From the NCBI RefSeq assembly GCF_010509075.1, contig NZ_CP048433.1, positions 1,674,001 to 1,738,000 of the forward strand: a stretch of DNA of 64,000 nt. The letters run 5' to 3'. This stretch comes from Collinsella aerofaciens ATCC 25986. Lineage in GTDB: Bacteria > Actinomycetota > Coriobacteriia > Coriobacteriales > Coriobacteriaceae. A model generated the notes under the pieces. It was given only the letters and a program-made list of their open reading frames with translations. It was not told the DNA's origin and did not search any database. The position numbers and the translations under genes were made by a program. Positions 15,736-41,839 of this stretch are shown here, in pieces (position 1 is the stretch's first letter; each line of letters starts with the position of its first letter).

Positions 15736-15854
15736 CGGTCAGCGGCGCCCTGGCCTCCCACGGGCCGACCCCGCAGTACTCTCGGCGCGATGGGGCTTAG
15801 CTTCCGGGTTCGGAACGGGACCGGGCGTGCCCCCCATGCTCTGGCCGCTGACCG
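15736..15854 (-). rRNA. rrf: 5S ribosomal RNA (operon 1)
   Basis: On the minus strand the sequence carries the 5S core CCCGTTCCGAACCCGGAAG and GCCGAGAGTACTGCGGGG. The closing helix GGTCAGCGGC pairs with GCCGCTGACC. It follows 23S and precedes the operon terminator. Ends are estimated from the closing helix. Confidence 0.9.
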
Positions 15855-15997
15855 GTGGGCGGCGCCCACCGTTACGGTGTCCTGGGTCTCACTCTACACG
15901 TGCCCTGGGGGCCGCATGGCGCATAGGGGAGGTGACTCGGGGGCATCCTCGTGCCCGGACCGCGCATGAGCGCATGTCCCGCGGGCCGCGAGGTGCG

Positions 15998-20880
<4,883 letters not shown>

Positions 20881-23243: not shown

Positions 23244-23362
23244 CGGTCAGCGGCGCCCTGGCCTCCCACGGGCCGACCCCGCAGTACTCTCGGCGCGATG
23301 GGGCTTAGCTTCCGGGTTCGGAACGGGACCGGGCGTGCCCCCCATGCTCTGGCCGCTGACCG
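23244..23362 (-). rRNA. rrf: 5S ribosomal RNA (operon 2)
   Basis: Identical by eye to the operon 1 copy. The ends are set by the same closing helix. Confidence 0.9.
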
Positions 23363-23505
23363 GTGGGCGGCGCCCACCGTTACGGTGTCCTGGGTCTCAC
23401 TCTACACGTGCCCTGGGGGCCGCATGGCGCATAGGGGAGGTGACTCGGGGGCATCCTCGTGCCCGGACCGCGCATGAGCGCATGTCCCGCGGGCCGCGAG
23501 GTGCG

Positions 23506-28388
<4,883 letters not shown>

Positions 28389-28914: not shown

Positions 28915-29003
28915 ACGGGTTCGAACCCGTGCACCGGCAACAAAAAAGACGGCCAACCGAAGTTGACCGTCTCAACAATCTTTGGGTGGGCCGTCAGGGG
29001 TTC
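28915..29003. repeat. Direct repeat copy 1: T-arm palindrome, terminator, truncated tRNA-Lys 3' end
   Basis: These 89 nt recur exactly at 29094-29182. On the plus strand the order is the T-arm-like palindrome ACGGGTTCGAACCCGT, the terminator hairpin of tRNA-Lys, then the tRNA-Lys 3' end, cut in the T-loop after GGGGTTC. Here the T-loop is followed by foreign hairpin sequence instead of the rest of a tRNA. Confidence 0.85.
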
Positions 29004-29093
29004 AGCCTGCTCCGCAGGCGGCCGCTGCGGCGCTTTCGCGCCTTGCGCGCTGCGCTGGCAAACGCTCACGCGTTTACTCAGCTCCGCGCCCCG
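29004..29093. repeat. Hairpin-rich insert between two tRNA-derived T-arm sequences (Lys locus)
   Basis: This GC-rich stretch contains small hairpins GCCTGC-TCC-GCAGGC, GGCGC-TTTC-GCGCC and AAACGC-TCAC-GCGTTT. It is alignable with the insert at 37863-37966 next to tRNA-Gly. It does not encode a protein. Confidence 0.65.
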
Positions 29094-29182
29094 ACGGGTT
29101 CGAACCCGTGCACCGGCAACAAAAAAGACGGCCAACCGAAGTTGACCGTCTCAACAATCTTTGGGTGGGCCGTCAGGGGTTC
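29094..29182. repeat. Direct repeat copy 2, overlapping the intact tRNA-Lys 3' end
   Basis: This second copy of the 89-nt repeat carries the T-arm palindrome and terminator and runs into the 3' end of the complete tRNA-Lys. Confidence 0.85.
29121..29150 (-). terminator. tRNA-Lys terminator
   Basis: On the minus strand GACGGTCAAC pairs with GTTGGCCGTC around the loop TTCG, followed by six T residues, 16 nt after the tRNA. A duplicate copy lies at 28942-28971. Confidence 0.85.
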
Positions 29183-29238
29183 GAACCCTGGACCTTGGGA
29201 TTAAAAGTCCCCTGCTCTGCCAGCTGAGCTAACGGCCC
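29166..29238 (-). tRNA. tRNA-Lys (anticodon TTT)
   Basis: This is a 73-nt cloverleaf with acceptor GGGCCGT/ACGGCCC, D-stem GCTC/GAGC, anticodon loop CTTTTAA and T-arm CAGGG-TTCGAAC-CCCTG, discriminator A. CCA is not encoded. The outermost anticodon-stem pair appears to be a G-A mismatch. Confidence 0.95.
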
Positions 29239-36265: not shown

Positions 36266-37612
36266 CTACTCGAAGCTCAGCTGCTCCAGACGATCAAAGA
36301 CCGTGTCGATACGGGTGAGGAAGTCCCACGGATCAAAGATCTCGTCGAGCTTCTCCTGACTGACGGTGCAGCGCGGGTCGGCCTCGAGACGCTCCTTAAA
36401 GGTGGGGCCGGAGACACAATCCTGTACCTCGTGCCAAGTTGCCATGGCGTTCTCCTGCACAATGGCGTACGCGTCCTCGCGGGTGATGCCCGTGTCGACG
36501 AGGGCGAGCAGCACCTTGGAGGAGAAGATGAGGCCGCGGGTCTTATTGAGGTTGGCCATCATGCGGGCAGGGTACAGCTGCAGGCCGTCGATAACGCGGA
36601 TGAGGCACTGGAACATGTGGTCGAGGGCGATGAAGCTATCGGCCTGGGCGACGCGCTCGGCAGAGGAGTGCGAAATGTCACGCTCGTGCCACAGGGCGAC
36701 GTTATCGAAGGCAACCTGGGCGTTGGACTTCACGACGCGCGACAGACCGCAGACTTTCTCCATGGTGATGGGGTTGCGCTTGTGCGGCATGGCTGAGCTG
36801 CCCTTTTGGCCCTTACGGAACGGCTCCTCGGCCTCGAGCGTATCAGTCTTCTGCAGATTGCGGACCTCGGTAGCGATGCGCTCGCAGGTGGCTGCGGTGG
36901 TGGCGAGAACGCCGGCGAGATAGGCGTGATGGTCGCGGCTGATAACCTGCGTGGACAGCGGGTCGTGAACCAGGCCCAGGTGCTCGCAGACATACTCCTC
37001 GACGAACGGCTCGATGGAGCTGTACGTGCCGACAGCGCCCGAGATGGCACCAAAGGCAACATTCTTGCGGGCGTCCTCAAGACGATCCAGATCGCGCTTG
37101 AGCTCCCAGGCCCAAGAGCCAAACTTCATGCCGAAGGTCATCGGCTCGGCGTGGATGCCATGAGTGCGGCCGGCACAGAGCGTGTTGCGCTCCTCGAAGG
37201 CGCGACGCTTGCAGATCTCGCCGAGCTTCTTGACATCCTCGACGATCAGGTCGCAGGCCTGGGTGAGCTGGTAGCACAGGGCCGTGTCACCCAGATCGGA
37301 GCTGGTCATGCCATAGTGAACCCAGCGGCTGGGCTTGGGGTCGCCCTCGGGAACATCGGCATCGATGTATTCCTTCATGTTGGTCAGGAAGGCAATGACG
37401 TCGTGGCGCGTGACTTCCTCGATCTCATCGACCTTCGCCTTCTCAAAGTTGGCATGGTCGCGGATCCACTGGGCCTCGTCTTTGGAAATACCGATCTTGC
37501 CGAGCTCCGCCTGGGCCTCGCAGGCCAGAACCTCGATCTCCTGCCAAATGGCGTACTTGTTCTCGAGGGAGAAGATGTGTCCCATCTCCGGGCGGGTATA
37601 GCGATCGATCAT
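36266..37612 (-). CDS. purB: Adenylosuccinate lyase
   Basis: This 448-residue tetrameric lyase acts twice in purine synthesis, splitting fumarate from SAICAR (the PurC product) and from adenylosuccinate. The fumarase/aspartase signature GSSAMPHKRNP is present, with TSSDLGDTA near the N-terminus and AGRTHGIHAEP carrying the catalytic His region. The ATG at 37612 (MIDRYTRP) has AAGGAG 8 nt upstream; the open frame continues 22 codons upstream without a ribosome site. It is followed by a hairpin. Confidence 0.96.
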   Translation of the reverse strand: MIDRYTRPEMGHIFSLENKYAIWQEIEVLACEAQAELGKIGISKDEAQWIRDHANFEKAKVDEIEEVTRHDVIAFLTNMKEYIDADVPEGDPKPSRWVHYGMTSSDLGDTALCYQLTQACDLIVEDVKKLGEICKRRAFEERNTLCAGRTHGIHAEPMTFGMKFGSWAWELKRDLDRLEDARKNVAFGAISGAVGTYSSIEPFVEEYVCEHLGLVHDPLSTQVISRDHHAYLAGVLATTAATCERIATEVRNLQKTDTLEAEEPFRKGQKGSSAMPHKRNPITMEKVCGLSRVVKSNAQVAFDNVALWHERDISHSSAERVAQADSFIALDHMFQCLIRVIDGLQLYPARMMANLNKTRGLIFSSKVLLALVDTGITREDAYAIVQENAMATWHEVQDCVSGPTFKERLEADPRCTVSQEKLDEIFDPWDFLTRIDTVFDRLEQLSFE

Positions 37613-37714
37613 AGCGGCTCCTTTTTGGTTATTGGCACGTTGGTCGTAACCCAACCATTGTACCGTGCGCAGGTGCAAGTATGGGCAGTAGGCATTAACC
37701 TAACATTTTGGAAT

Positions 37715-37771
37715 TGGAGCGGGCAACGGGACGTCCGCGCGCCCGCGTCGCGGACGCGCACCGGCTGCGGC
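37715..37771. repeat. Truncated tRNA-Gly 3' end plus hairpin, copy A
   Basis: The first 18 nt (TGGAGCGGGCAACGGGAC) equal the 3' end of the intact tRNA-Gly at 38036-38053. They are followed by a hairpin with a GTC loop and CGCACCGGCTGCGGC. The unit has the same 57-nt length as copy B, but the hairpin stem has a different sequence. Confidence 0.75.
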
Positions 37772-37844
37772 GATCTCCTCGGATTCACGGAGACGATGGG
37801 GAAAACTTTGTTGAATTGGCCGTCCCGAGTTCTCCCGCGCTCGG

Positions 37845-37982
37845 TGGAGCGGGCAACGGGACGTCCGCGTATTTGCTTCGCAAATCCGCACCGGCTGCGG
37901 CCGCCTATCGGCGACCTTGCCTGCTCGCTATAAACGCTTCGCGTTTATTTAACGCTCGCACCCTGTCGGGTTCGAGTCCCGG
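37845..37982. repeat. Truncated tRNA-Gly 3' end, hairpin-rich insert and T-arm palindrome, copy B
   Basis: It starts with the same 18-nt tRNA-Gly fragment (37845-37862). Hairpins ATTTGC-TTC-GCAAAT and TAAACGC-TTC-GCGTTTA follow, and it ends in the T-arm-like sequence CGGGTTCGAGTCCCGG (37967-37982). The insert (37863-37966) aligns with the one at the tRNA-Lys locus. Confidence 0.75.
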
Positions 37983-37992
37983 CACTTTATTG

Positions 37993-38025
37993 AAAAAGGC
38001 ACGGTAACGAAACGTTACCGTGCCT
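37993..38025 (-). terminator. tRNA-Gly terminator
   Basis: AGGCACGGTAACG and its exact complement (37997-38009 with 38013-38025) form a 13-bp stem with a 3-nt loop, followed on the minus strand by TTTTTC. Confidence 0.92.
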
Positions 38026-38038
38026 GAAATTCGAATGG

Positions 38039-38110
38039 AGCGGGCAACGGGACTCGAACCCGCGAGTGTCAGCTTGGGAAGCTGATGCCTTACCACTTGG
38101 CGATGCCCGC
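38039..38110 (-). tRNA. tRNA-Gly (anticodon CCC)
   Basis: This is a 72-nt cloverleaf with acceptor GCGGGCA/TGCCCGC, anticodon stem TCAGC/GCTGA with loop TTCCCAA, and T-arm GCGGG-TTCGAGT-CCCGT. The discriminator base is T, and CCA is not encoded. Confidence 0.95.
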
Positions 38111-38123
38111 ATATGTGGGGGAT

Positions 38124-38153
38124 AGTATAACGCGGTTGTCTTGTTCGATACAA
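38124..38153 (-). promoter_or_regulatory. tRNA-Gly promoter
   Basis: On the minus strand TTGTAT (38153-38148), an 18-nt spacer and TATACT (38129-38124) lie 13 nt upstream of the tRNA. Confidence 0.75.
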
Positions 38154-38407
38154 GGGTGGCGATGCTTGTTTTAGCTGTGGAGATTCGTTTGAAAATCGCG
38201 TCAATTGTGGAGACGAGGACCTATGGCTTCCTGTTCCCCTTATCTTCTACCTGCGCTTTTGCTTGATTGTTGTATTTGAGCTCAATTTGTCAGGAATTGG
38301 GCAAGCTTTTGGTCAGGCTCCGGTACTTACCCGCATGAACCTCGGGGGTAGCCTCATCCTACGCGTCGCAGCCTCCCCGTGCGGCGCACGAGGGATAAGG
38401 AGCAGCC
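38154..38407 (+). promoter_or_regulatory. Upstream region of the adhesin gene
   Basis: This spacer of about 250 nt should hold the adhesin promoter and leader. The last ~65 nt before the ribosome site are GC-rich with several possible short stems (for example CCTCG 38340-38344 with CGAGG 38389-38393), so the leader may be structured. No known riboswitch was recognised. Confidence 0.3.
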
Positions 38408-41400
38408 ATGTCCAACGCACCCACGCACTCTGTCCACAGCGCAATCGCAACAGGTCCGCTGCTCCTGCTCCTCTTCCTGCTTTTCGGCTGCCTGGCACCG
38501 GGAGCCGCATTTGCCGTCGATGGCTACGACCAGCTCGGCTTCCGCACTATTAGCGATGATTGTGGGCCCTTCTTCATCGGCAAGTATGAAGCTCAAGACA
38601 CCTCGATTGCCTACTGCATGAACCAGGAGCGCCCCGGCCCCACCAAACCGGGTGGCCCATGGCTCAACTTTGATCAAGGCTGGGTGTGGCTCGACGACGA
38701 GTTCGCGGCAATCGTTTGTCACGGATATCCCACCACCACGTCGTTTGACGGTTACCATCTTTCACCCGATCGCGCCCGCGCCGCCACCCAGCTTGCCGTA
38801 TGGATGCTCAACGGCACTACCCATGTCGACGGCACCTACTCCTACACGACCGCTCAGGGTAAAACCAAGAGCGGACACTTTACCGCCGACAATGAAGTCG
38901 TGGCGGCTGCGCGGTGGCTCCACGACAGCGCAAAATCAGGAAGCATCAAAGCCGCTCCGCACCGCGCGCGACGCTATCTAGGGGCCGTATCGGGCGGCAG
39001 CAAACGTCAAGACATGCTCTATGTACTGCCGGCGGTCTCTGTTTCCTTCCAAAAGCAGTCTGCTAACACCGTTATTACCAGCGGAAACAATACCTATCAG
39101 TTTACCGGGGCAACATTCGATATTTTTGAGAGCGCCAGCGGCGCGCGTGTCGGCACCATCAAGATGGACAGCAACGGTCGAGCGCAAGCAACACTTCTGC
39201 CCAACACGGCATACTACCTAGTTGAAACGAAGGCGCCGGCCGGCTATGTCCCCCGCCACGATCGTATTGCCTTTACCACGGGGAATGACGGCGGGCGGGT
39301 CGTCATTGATGAACAGCCCGGCACCATCAACCTGCGTATCGTAAAACTCGATGCCGCGACGAATGCCGGCCCCCAGGTGGGATCTTCACTCGCAGGAGCA
39401 GAGTTCACGTGTGTGTCGCAATCAACCCCTGGATGGGCACAAATCCTCACGACCGACGAAAGCGGTCGGGCCGCCCTCGCCGATGTCCCCTTAGGAACCT
39501 TTACCATCTACGAATCAAAAGCCCCCGAGGGCTACCTGCCATCCAACGACAGCTGGACCTATACCGTTGGAGCCGACCAGCTCGGCGATTCAGGCGTGGT
39601 CGAGATCGAATCTCGCGTTTCCGATATCCCCATTGCGTTTAACCTTGAGATTTCCAAATTCAAGGATTACGGCAATAGCGACCAATCCGGCCTGGAGCAG
39701 CCGGCGGGTGGTGTTGTCTTTGAGGTTGTCAGCAACAGCTCTCAGCAGGTTGTTGGCACACTGATCACAAACATCTATGGCTTTGCCTCCACCAAAGATC
39801 AGCCCGAAGCATGGTTCGGCGCAGGCAAGCGACCCGCCGGTGTCCACGGAGCCGTCCCATACGACCGTGCCGGCTACACGGTTCGCGAGGTTCCGGAAAC
39901 CGTCCCCGAGGGTTTTAAACGTGCAGGGGAATGGACCGTCGGGGCCAATCAGATTTCCGACGACGCCGAGCTTCAATATATCGTGGACAACCACGCTCTG
40001 TCGACGCATCTCCAGATTGTAAAACGCGATGCCCAAACAGGCGCTTCTGTTCCCCTAGCCGGATTCACCTTCCAACTCCTCGACAGCAATCACGAACCTG
40101 TCTCACAAACTTGCTGGTATCCAGCACATAACGTAATGGACACCTTTACGACTGACGCGACCGGGACCGTCACACTGCCCGAATCGCTCGTGCCGGGCAC
40201 CTATTATGTACGCGAAACCTCGGCCAAAGAGCCCTATCTTGTCGGCGAAGAGATCGAGGTAAACATACCCGCCGACATGAACCTAACGCCCGTTGCAATC
40301 GCCTCGTATTATGACCACGCCGCGACCGGAAACATCAGGATCGTTAAAACCGATGCCATAGACGGCAGCAGCCTCGCGGGCGCCGTCTTTGAGATCCGTG
40401 CCTCGGGTGATATCGTGCGCCCCGACGGTAGCATTGCCGCGCTCGACGGTGAGACTGTCGCGACCGTCACGACGGATGAAACTGGAGAAGCACGCGCGGG
40501 CAACCTCCCACTGGGATCTGGCACCGCACGCTACGAGGTTGTCGAGACTCAAGCGCCGGCAGGCTTCTTGCTCGATCAGACAACCCATATTGTCGACCTT
40601 ACTTATGCCGACCAGAAAACACCCGTTGTAGAAGCACGGCTTAACGTATCCGACGATTACACCAAGGTTGATATCTCCAAGGTCGATGCAAGCGGTGAGC
40701 AGGAAGTGGAAGGCGCACAGCTCGCCTTATATGGTCCCGATAAAACCGAAATAGACTCCTGGACCTCATCCGACAAGCCACACCGCGTCGAACATCTTGC
40801 ACCCGGCACCTACTCGTTGCGCGAAATGATGTCTCCGCGGACCTATGACCTTGCCGAGGAGATAACGTTTGAAATAAAGGATACGGGAGAAGTCCAATCC
40901 GTCGCGATGAAGGATGCGCCCATCGAGATCAAGGGGCAGGTCGACAAGCGTCAGGAACTTGTCCAACCTATCGAAAAGGGCCTGTTGGCTAACGGCGATG
41001 GTAAAAACCGTGCCGCGATGCAAACCAATACGGATGGGCTTTTCTCCTATACCATCGACGCTCGAAACGATTCAACTACCTGGGTTGATGAGTTCACAAT
41101 TACCGATGATCTTGAGTGTGCCGAGGACGATACGGCGAGATTCGTCTCAGTCGAAACCCCCGTCGCCATCGGCGACCTCAACGGTCTGTGCAACGTGTGG
41201 TATCGCACGACGCCGTTGGACTCGACAGACGTCGATGAACCGGCGAACGCGACACTTGACGATGGACACGAAAATCCTTGGCTTGAGTCCGACGAAGTAA
41301 AAGAGAGCCTTGGTGAGGACTGTCGCCTCGTCGATTACGACGGCTGGCGCCTCTGGAAGGCGGATGTCTCGACCACGGAATCCACCACACTCGAGGCGGA

Positions 41401-41839
41401 AGAGCTCGACCTTACACCCAATACCGTCGTAACGGGCATTCGAATTGAATACGGTGCGGTAGCCGCCGACTTTACGACTCGAAGCGATGCGGATTCTTGG
41501 ACCCGCGATGATCTCAAAGATGAGCACGACGACCTTGACGATGCCAAAGCAATCCTTGGCACAGACGCTCGGGGCGCAATCGTGCACATGCAGGCGACGT
41601 CGGCTTATACGCCCCAAACCGCACTCACCAACAGCGCACGCGTCGATCTTTGCCGCAACGGCGGCGGCGATAAACTTGAGTCACATGACGAGGACCGTGT
41701 CATTCAACGCTGTACCCTACTGCAGGACCTACCGGCAACAGGATCAGTTCCCATCGCCGCTTGCATCACCGCGCTCCTGACCTCGGGTGCCGCAGCCCTA
41801 TGGTTCGCTCGCCTTAGGTCGACCCCAAAGAAGCGCTAG
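38408..41839 (+). CDS. LPXTG-anchored surface adhesin with thioester and SpaA/CnaB-type domains
   Basis: This 1143-residue protein has a signal peptide (about 1-36, ending AFA) and a C-terminal sortase signal LPATG (1108-1112), a hydrophobic helix and a basic tail. Near the N-terminus Cys70 (IAYCMNQ) and Gln128 (TQLAVW) fit a thioester domain able to bind host surfaces covalently. At least six SpaA/CnaB-like modules follow; several have the isopeptide-type pattern with a Lys strand (LRIVKLD, LQIVKRD, IRIVKTD) and a Glu strand (VETKAPAGY, ESKAPEGY, VETQAPAGF). The last 250 residues form a different module rich in Asp. The start ATG at 38408 follows AAGGAG. No sortase or pilin gene adjoins, so it may be anchored by a distant housekeeping sortase. 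Confidence 0.9.
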   Translation: MSNAPTHSVHSAIATGPLLLLLFLLFGCLAPGAAFAVDGYDQLGFRTISDDCGPFFIGKYEAQDTSIAYCMNQERPGPTKPGGPWLNFDQGWVWLDDEFAAIVCHGYPTTTSFDGYHLSPDRARAATQLAVWMLNGTTHVDGTYSYTTAQGKTKSGHFTADNEVVAAARWLHDSAKSGSIKAAPHRARRYLGAVSGGSKRQDMLYVLPAVSVSFQKQSANTVITSGNNTYQFTGATFDIFESASGARVGTIKMDSNGRAQATLLPNTAYYLVETKAPAGYVPRHDRIAFTTGNDGGRVVIDEQPGTINLRIVKLDAATNAGPQVGSSLAGAEFTCVSQSTPGWAQILTTDESGRAALADVPLGTFTIYESKAPEGYLPSNDSWTYTVGADQLGDSGVVEIESRVSDIPIAFNLEISKFKDYGNSDQSGLEQPAGGVVFEVVSNSSQQVVGTLITNIYGFASTKDQPEAWFGAGKRPAGVHGAVPYDRAGYTVREVPETVPEGFKRAGEWTVGANQISDDAELQYIVDNHALSTHLQIVKRDAQTGASVPLAGFTFQLLDSNHEPVSQTCWYPAHNVMDTFTTDATGTVTLPESLVPGTYYVRETSAKEPYLVGEEIEVNIPADMNLTPVAIASYYDHAATGNIRIVKTDAIDGSSLAGAVFEIRASGDIVRPDGSIAALDGETVATVTTDETGEARAGNLPLGSGTARYEVVETQAPAGFLLDQTTHIVDLTYADQKTPVVEARLNVSDDYTKVDISKVDASGEQEVEGAQLALYGPDKTEIDSWTSSDKPHRVEHLAPGTYSLREMMSPRTYDLAEEITFEIKDTGEVQSVAMKDAPIEIKGQVDKRQELVQPIEKGLLANGDGKNRAAMQTNTDGLFSYTIDARNDSTTWVDEFTITDDLECAEDDTARFVSVETPVAIGDLNGLCNVWYRTTPLDSTDVDEPANATLDDGHENPWLESDEVKESLGEDCRLVDYDGWRLWKADVSTTESTTLEAEELDLTPNTVVTGIRIEYGAVAADFTTRSDADSWTRDDLKDEHDDLDDAKAILGTDARGAIVHMQATSAYTPQTALTNSARVDLCRNGGGDKLESHDEDRVIQRCTLLQDLPATGSVPIAACITALLTSGAAALWFARLRSTPKKR

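Follow-up and report, generated by a model that had tools for sequence, protein, structure and literature searches.

An apparently undescribed family of tiny gene-free elements behind tRNA genes of Collinsella and its relatives

We report an apparently undescribed family of tiny gene-free elements that lie behind many tRNA genes of Collinsella and its relatives. The family was recognized in a 64,000-nt stretch of Collinsella aerofaciens ATCC 25986 (contig NZ_CP048433.1, positions 1,674,001 to 1,738,000; the window), in which one locus lies at tRNA-Gly(ccc) and another at tRNA-Lys(ttt). The general order is tRNA, a spacer with the terminator, an inverted copy of the tRNA T-arm (revT), a structured core of ~100 nt and a copy of the tRNA's own 3′ end. 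On balance, and with slightly better than even confidence, we favor the reading that these are gene-free integrative elements of ~130–190 bp, specific for tRNA and tmRNA genes, that recombine at the T-loop through a tyrosine-type recombinase acting in trans and probably use the core as folded single-stranded DNA (ssDNA). An earlier note on this DNA had named the Gly copy as a candidate for an undescribed element family, and that standing has held. In Rfam searches at the gathering threshold and at E values up to 10 no family reached threshold on the element, the tRNA alone passing its gathering score, and no description of the family was found in the open-access literature, a coverage that leaves most subscription journals outside.

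Anatomy of the elements in the window and its genome

On the tRNA strand the Gly locus runs from the tRNA through a terminator-like hairpin, revT and a GC-rich core of ~100 nt with four hairpins to an 18-nt tail. Its features are as follows.

38036..38110, minus strand: tRNA-Gly(ccc), the host gene (ARAGORN, Rfam RF00005)
37997..38025, minus strand: intrinsic-terminator-like hairpin in the spacer of unit B, behind tRNA-Gly (13 pairs, then a T run)
37967..37981, minus strand: revT, the inverted tRNA-Gly T-arm (CGGGACTCGAACCCG on the minus strand; 0/13 mismatches against the reverse complement of its own T-arm)
37863..37966, minus strand: structured core of unit B with hairpins P2–P5 (match of covariance model R1, family covariation)
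37930..37948, minus strand: P3 inner hairpin of unit B, cap c(GAA)g on the tRNA-sense strand (sequence, fold)
37893..37921, minus strand: P4 hairpin of unit B, cap c(GATA)g (sequence, fold)
37867..37889, minus strand: P5 hairpin of unit B, cap c(GAA)g (sequence, fold)
37845..37862, minus strand: copy of the 3′ 18 nt of tRNA-Gly after core B (exact repeat)
37733..37844, minus strand: unit A, a 130-nt variant (82% repeat of the distal part of B)
37715..37732, minus strand: distal copy of the 3′ 18 nt of tRNA-Gly (exact repeat)

The full unit B measures 191 nt (the spacing from 38036 to 37845), and its P2 also uses the last bases of revT. The R1 model match (G000:C1:1711864-1711975, G000 being the genome of the window) corresponds to window positions 37864-37975, the unit B core. 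Unit A has an unrelated spacer and a sole hairpin of P5 type (37737-37759) adjoining the tail, and is without terminator, inverted T-arm and long hairpin; units of ~130 nt were found again at tRNA-Gly in relatives. The recurrence of the last 18 nt of tRNA-Gly that the earlier note saw at 37715 and 37845 is exact (37715-37732 and 37845-37862). Its two 57-nt units do match each other, at 82%, but 57 nt is merely the distal end of a larger element. The stems it described as pairing despite changed letters both pair (B as ATTTGC/GCAAAT with loop TTC on the plus strand, A, with one G-T pair, as a GC-rich stem around a GTC loop), and the blocks it found common to the tRNA-Lys insert and the insert after copy B are present in the sequence. 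The inverted T-arm, the many kinds of tRNA gene plus tmRNA and the precise presence or absence of units go beyond what had been observed there. Adjoining tRNA-Gly, a 1143-aa protein (38408-41839) with a thioester domain and SpaA-type domains resembles Gram-positive surface pilus or adhesin proteins.

At the second host gene of the window, the Lys locus (28915-29238), the order of parts is identical.

29164..29238, minus strand: tRNA-Lys(ttt), the host gene (ARAGORN)
29094..29109, minus strand: revT of the Lys element, nearly palindromic (sequence)
29002..29093, minus strand: structured core of the Lys element (sequence, fold)
28984..29001, minus strand: copy of the tRNA-Lys 3′ end after the core (exact repeat)
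28915..28983, minus strand: second copy of the tRNA-Lys terminator and revT (equal to the stretch that follows the tRNA at the empty sites of relatives)

The Lys revT differs at 1 of 13 positions from the inverted T-arm and likewise at 1 of 13 from the direct T-arm. Two rRNA operons with equal Rfam scores for 5S, 16S and 23S lie on one strand at 15737-20880 and 23245-28388, and the Lys array stands immediately beside the second.

A DNA search of the same genome with the Gly stretch gave 15 matches, the query itself included. Recurrence on this scale greatly exceeds chance: nine matches were additional copies, with E values from 4.7e-33 for the best to 3.4e-11 for the weakest, and each of them follows a tRNA or tmRNA gene. 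The inverted T-arm of the query locus (E 3.8e-4) and the end of its tRNA (E 0.06) gave two more, and the last three had E of at least 0.2. Inspection of the 3′ flanks of all 57 tRNA genes and of the tmRNA gene showed the element at 12 of the former and also at the latter. An own 18-nt tail copy, exact except for one mismatch at Val, lies 158-179 nt downstream with the core between at 12 of the 57 tRNA genes. Tail matches at other distances (Ile, Gly-gcc, Asn, Lys-ctt, Glu-ctc) each reflect a second gene for that kind of tRNA and were left uncounted. Behind tRNA-Gln(ttg) (L040) there is a terminator, a revT and a few core bases, and behind tRNA-Gly of genome G012 (L183) a terminator, a revT and a truncated core, in both cases with no second tail; these are remnants, that is, decayed or partly excised elements. 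At the tmRNA locus of the window's genome (L018:573-1100) the cores are followed by only the first 7-10 nt of the tail, approximately the part able to pair with revT, and then by unrelated spacers; in some other genomes (L077, L083) the tail behind the tmRNA cores is complete.

The tail copies begin at about nt 58/59 and cover the 3′ 18 nt at 12 tRNA genes of this genome. Copies of this extent would be made by a retro-element whose reverse transcriptase copied the tRNA 3′ end to A58 (18 nt, the extent familiar from retroviral tRNA primers) and joined it to the core, methylated A58 being a stop for reverse transcriptase. We nevertheless regard this origin as very improbable. The tRNA-Phe gene (L032) ends in CCT and the tRNA-Lys gene (L053) in CCC. 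The copies that follow their cores have these same ends, where a mature tRNA would have CCA, and continue into the terminator; in some relatives the tRNA-Lys gene does end in CCA. Moreover, the boundary of the copy shifts by several bases, with TTCGAGTC in Leu-caa and CGATTC in Phe.

Distribution, host genes and the coming and going of units

The proposal of an element family implied further homologues, and these were found by covariance models in 37 of 43 genomes of the genus and, within the class, in 19 of 119 genomes spread over 8 of 68 genera (the genome of the window included in both counts). Six of nine genomes of one distant family of the class carry the element with a shorter core, and in a sample of the phylum searched with stricter filters 8 of 296 genomes did so, all from the same family as the window. 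An exact pattern of one subfamily matched 13 named records, all Collinsella.

A second covariance model, run over 100 loci, gave 143 matches, 122 of them distinct; 128 of the 143 were in loci brought in by the element search and 15 in loci of the window's genome fetched around tRNA genes. A tRNA or tmRNA gene was positioned at most 330 nt upstream on the same strand for 116 of the 122 distinct copies (at most 90 nt for 98 of them), the orientation of the core relative to the tRNA was conserved, and the host genes were of 27 kinds (26 anticodons plus tmRNA). As for the six copies with no called gene, by eye two follow a tmRNA 3′ end, one follows a partial tRNA-Leu and a fourth stands behind an apparent recombinase gene end and a tmRNA terminator; the last two are near contig or locus edges. 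An own tail followed the core in 89 of the 116 copies, with none recognizable in 27. Past the distal tail, 23 of 87 arrays continued with unrelated sequence and 48 of 87 with repeats at 32/40 or more.

The inverted T-arm tracks the host gene. Averaged by host-gene kind over 103 distinct rows, revT agreed with the reverse complement of its own T-arm at 13.60 of 17 positions, against 11.61 of 17 when hosts were permuted (maximum 12.26; 0 of 1000 permutations reached the observed value). Hosts with TTCAA had TTGAA in revT in 5 of 5 cases, and hosts with TTCGA had TCGAA in 92 of 98, the other six having neither. Because revT matches its own T-arm it is also complementary to the tail; in single-copy folds this pairing is present for Gly as RNA and absent for Lys, the complementarity itself following from the tracking of the T-arm. 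The core/tail junction keeps only ~CGA|NTCC and, because the full T-loop is not kept there, would make an unusual attP; a complete T-arm occurs in the unit solely in inverted form.

Single units are precisely present or absent among close relatives. With the 179-nt Lys unit removed, 220 of 220 bases agreed with the empty site in three comparisons, those of G000 with G009 and with G003 among them. Removal of the 186-nt Phe unit gave 219/220 and 218/220 against empty relatives, and that of the 189-nt Leu-cag unit 216/220 and 209/220. Among 20 close genomes, the Phe site was occupied in 13 (in G030 with a shortened core), empty in 6 and at a contig end in 1; the Lys site was occupied in 14, empty in 4, at a contig end in 1 and followed by other sequence in G020; and the Leu-cag site was occupied in 15, empty in 3, a truncated remnant in 1 (G009) and a locus without the tRNA in 1. 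Occupancy patterns vary between loci. In the G009 remnant (L240) the core breaks off in P3 and gives way to sequence, possibly an insertion sequence, that also occurs near the same tRNA in L243. Tail copies at the Gly locus number 1 to 3 in 19 genomes, and in G003 the locus is divided by an island.

That island belongs to an explanation we consider unlikely, though of some weight, in which the units are ordinary double-stranded att-site remnants of tRNA-targeting islands or phages, with the hairpins as arm-type protein sites and no single-strand role. The T-loop and the T-stem junction are known integrase subsites (PMC4383910), the ~5-kb island in tRNA-Gly of G003 has a 454-aa Pfam phage-integrase protein, and tRNA-Lys of G020 is followed by unrelated sequence with no second tail in 1000 nt. 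However, the tRNA repeat of the G003 island spans 48 nt (at 98%), not 18, and the island stands beside the array, in front of it, instead of ending in one. It was considered as an autonomous partner of the elements and set aside on account of this 48-nt repeat and of its end, which is not in the core. Among phage records the 97-nt core had no match, and a longer query that included tRNA parts matched 35 records, among the matches listed always through those tRNA parts. Viral contigs had no match to two nearly exact patterns, which diverged copies would escape, and a plasmid search gave one match, in a 900-kb Collinsella record. Compensatory changes and the bias in hairpin caps (both below) would also be unexpected for double-stranded protein sites.

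The order of mixed ends at tRNA-Lys bears on how units arrive. In G017 the gene ends in ...ACCC with one type of spacer and the sequence beyond the core in ...ACCA with another. This order fits an incoming element that brings a new 3′ end and displaces the old one, as the rule for tRNA islands predicts, by which the target is regenerated and a fragment displaced (PMC4383910). The reverse order, with ...ACCA beside the tRNA and ...ACCC distal, occurs in G030, G034 and G002; exchange between arrays within the core could yield either. Presence or absence and mixed arrays could also stem from homologous recombination between repeats or cores.

We compared 153 cores from 46 genomes, of which 146 had a core of the same gene kind in another genome. 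The nearest core was of the same kind for 110 of these and of another kind for 36, in a sample in which many host-gene kinds are thin and Lys is well covered. The Lys core of G036 scored 0.91 against Arg-acg of G041 and 0.76 within Lys; Leu-taa of G060, from another genus, scored 0.91 against Gly-ccc of G040, with 0.71 as its counterpart; Arg-cct of G041 scored 0.94 against Gly-ccc of G040; and the Glu and Val cores of the window's genome scored 0.91 against each other, with 0.75 and 0.73 as counterparts. A further case, Leu-cag of G011 with Arg as its nearest core among 100 cores, vanished with more Leu-cag loci in the set of 153. Judging from these similarities, cores descend mostly by locus but now and then change host, in which case tail and revT correspond to the gene at the new site.

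Immobile and ancient tandem duplications of the 3′ ends of tRNA genes, held alike by homologous recombination and with hairpin arms and revT evened out, in the absence of selection, through template switching at inverted repeats, would agree with several of these observations: the repeats past the tail are often near identical (the 48 of 87 arrays above), Gly tail copies range from 1 to 3, 110 of 146 cores are nearest to one of the same gene kind, and template switching makes covariation of arms and tracking of the T-arm cheap. We find such an origin rather improbable, since a common multi-hairpin core at 27 kinds of host gene is hard to obtain without a shared element, and since cores must have moved for similar ones to stand at different tRNAs, as they do, both inside one genome and across genomes, in 36 of 146 cases.

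Fold, covariation and the nature of the folded strand

MAFFT on mixed subfamilies gave no useful consensus, and the model was therefore seeded from seven like copies of the window's genome, aligned by MAFFT on sequence alone, with the structure drawn from single-sequence folds. In this alignment 96.9% of cells were paired and 9 pairs were changed on both sides, against at most 46.7% paired in slid controls. With 57 sequences from many genomes, 93.1% of cells were paired, 34 of 37 pairs were changed on both sides, and cells changed on both sides numbered 319 (shuffled versions, 75.1; slid versions, no more than 72), counts that lean towards structure because the alignment was fitted to the model and that are not of independent events because the copies are related. 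Covariation, which the earlier note had expected of a selected fold, is far above the shuffled and slid controls.

The hairpins are also distinguished by their caps. Read on the tRNA-sense strand, 81 of 120 distinct core hairpins with perfect stems of at least 5, which through common descent are not independent, carry a c(GNA)g or c(GNNA)g cap. Elsewhere in the window, with both strands counted and the rRNA operons excluded, the figure is 4 of 308, and for the spacers preceding the core it is 1 of 30. The rule holds unevenly by helix, applying to 46 of 61 distinct hairpins at P5, 40 of 70 at P4, 20 of 47 at P3 and 15 of 47 at P2, the last figure being a direct recount with 21 matches lacking a readable stem, as P2 was poorly read through the alignment owing to gaps (4 of 56 fit). 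P4 caps closed by C-G were GNYA in 19 cases and GNRA in 8, and an excess of GNYA over GNRA is not the usual preference of RNA. Extra-stable DNA hairpins follow a tetraloop rule d(cGNNAg), and GNA loops of DNA are reportedly treated by Yoshizawa (1997). In DNA, GNA caps form very stable loops (PMC6479982). These extra-stable, DNA-type caps hint at folded ssDNA. G-T pairs made up 57 of 1800 pairs in the element (3.2%; 2.1% without one terminal pair) and 116 of 1778 (6.5%) in the tRNA stems of the same loci.

Several features would suit a structured noncoding RNA produced by read-through from the tRNA promoter, which might, for instance, take part in tRNA processing or titrate a tRNA-binding protein. 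Covariation is strong, the orientation to the tRNA is conserved, GNRA caps, which also suit RNA, occur in 12 of 47 distinct P3 hairpins, the Lys copy folds well as RNA (z −3.98), and the five-arm fold of the Gly copy is its RNA optimum. The optimum for Gly with DNA parameters differs in part, and for Lys neither the RNA nor the DNA optimum closes by pairing of revT with the tail. We judge an RNA of this kind improbable, however: a terminator-like hairpin precedes the core in the window, a search of 37600-38200 gave no sigma-70-like promoter, G-T pairs are scarcer than in tRNA stems, many caps are GNA or GNYA rather than GNRA, and complete units come and go among close relatives. Selection on folded RNA or ssDNA, as the earlier note suggested, is supported; the caps, the rare G-T pairs, the terminator and the missing promoter lean, without settling the matter, to folded ssDNA rather than RNA.

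Proposed mechanism and comparison with known systems

Returning to the integrative reading that we prefer, we infer that the elements are actively gained, and mobilized in trans by a tyrosine recombinase with ssDNA as its substrate. A complete unit would consist of tRNA nt 59-76, the spacer (usually with the tRNA's terminator), revT and the structured core. A tyrosine-type recombinase from the host or another mobile element would join the core/tail junction to the T-loop of a matching tRNA gene, the presumed crossover point at tRNA-Gly, so that the element's own 3′ end completes the tRNA while the previous one comes to lie beyond the inserted unit, at the Gly locus as the distal 18-nt copy (37715..37732). 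Tandem arrays could arise by repeated insertion or unequal exchange, and clean loss by recombination between repeats. The core would probably act as folded ssDNA of the tRNA-sense strand, with revT pairing with the start of the tail (P1) to close the multi-hairpin fold, as the ends of integron attC sites pair; template switching between revT and the T-arm is one conceivable way in which revT could be re-fitted once the host changes. PF00589 has 13 matches in the window's genome, none of them tied to the elements, and neither a circle nor another free form of an element was observed.

Genes for tRNAs are classic landing sites of mobile DNA, and to our knowledge the residents described so far bring their own integrase and use one or a few tRNAs. 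More tentatively, we suggest that the elements form a class of parasite whose folded strand mimics the T-arm/acceptor duplex of the target tRNA and is read by a T-loop-reading recombinase. Such a parasite could enter behind almost any tRNA gene and leave it undamaged, with revT re-fitted for each host, in an integron-like array system that has a tRNA gene as its entry site. If this is true, a gene-free family matched to the T-arms of 26 anticodons plus tmRNA would have uncoupled the use of a site from the enzyme, would provide a second natural case beside attC of recombination on folded DNA, and would account for the repeated tRNA 3′ ends in a major gut genus.

Comparison with known systems places the element beside each in part. 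It shares covarying hairpins with the RNA families of Rfam, none of which reaches its gathering score at the element. A prophage att site would be expected in phage genomes, where the 97-nt core is absent from the records searched. MITEs and the REP elements of RAYT systems are short, gene-free, palindromic and present in many copies, as is the element, which like them is presumably moved in trans; they have fixed terminal repeats and a short target duplication. Unlike them, the element has a strict site behind tRNA genes and ends that follow the host tRNA, and in place of fixed terminal inverted repeats with a short target duplication it has a repeat of at least 18 nt, often including the terminator.

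Integron attC sites have core-box sequences and ends that pair. With integron cassettes and attC as a comparison system (PMC3053210, PMC6393395), the element has in common its arrays, site ends that could in principle pair and a structure kept while sequence varies. Unlike integrons, it uses the T-arm of a tRNA gene rather than attI as its site, has four hairpin arms and carries no cargo gene; where attC has core boxes beside a cargo frame, the element has the T-arm junction given above in a gene-free unit. The complementarity of revT and tail would permit a mode of working like that of attC, a resemblance rather than a demonstrated membership.

With tRNA and tmRNA islands of the Islander type, which use a tyrosine integrase, the element shares insertion in the 3′ part of the gene, a rebuilt tRNA, a displaced fragment, the T-loop subsite and the use of tmRNA. 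A rebuilt tRNA with a displaced fragment is seen in 89 of 116 copies and not in 27, and empty sites occur in relatives at Lys, Phe and Leu-cag. Unlike the islands, the element is only 130-190 bp long, has an inverted T-arm inside and places one core at 27 kinds of gene; between the ends of the units read (130-191 nt) there is no integrase or any other gene, and because it lacks an integrase it falls outside the definition of a genomic island. Island finders are thereby warned that a displaced tRNA fragment is not necessarily the mark of an island.
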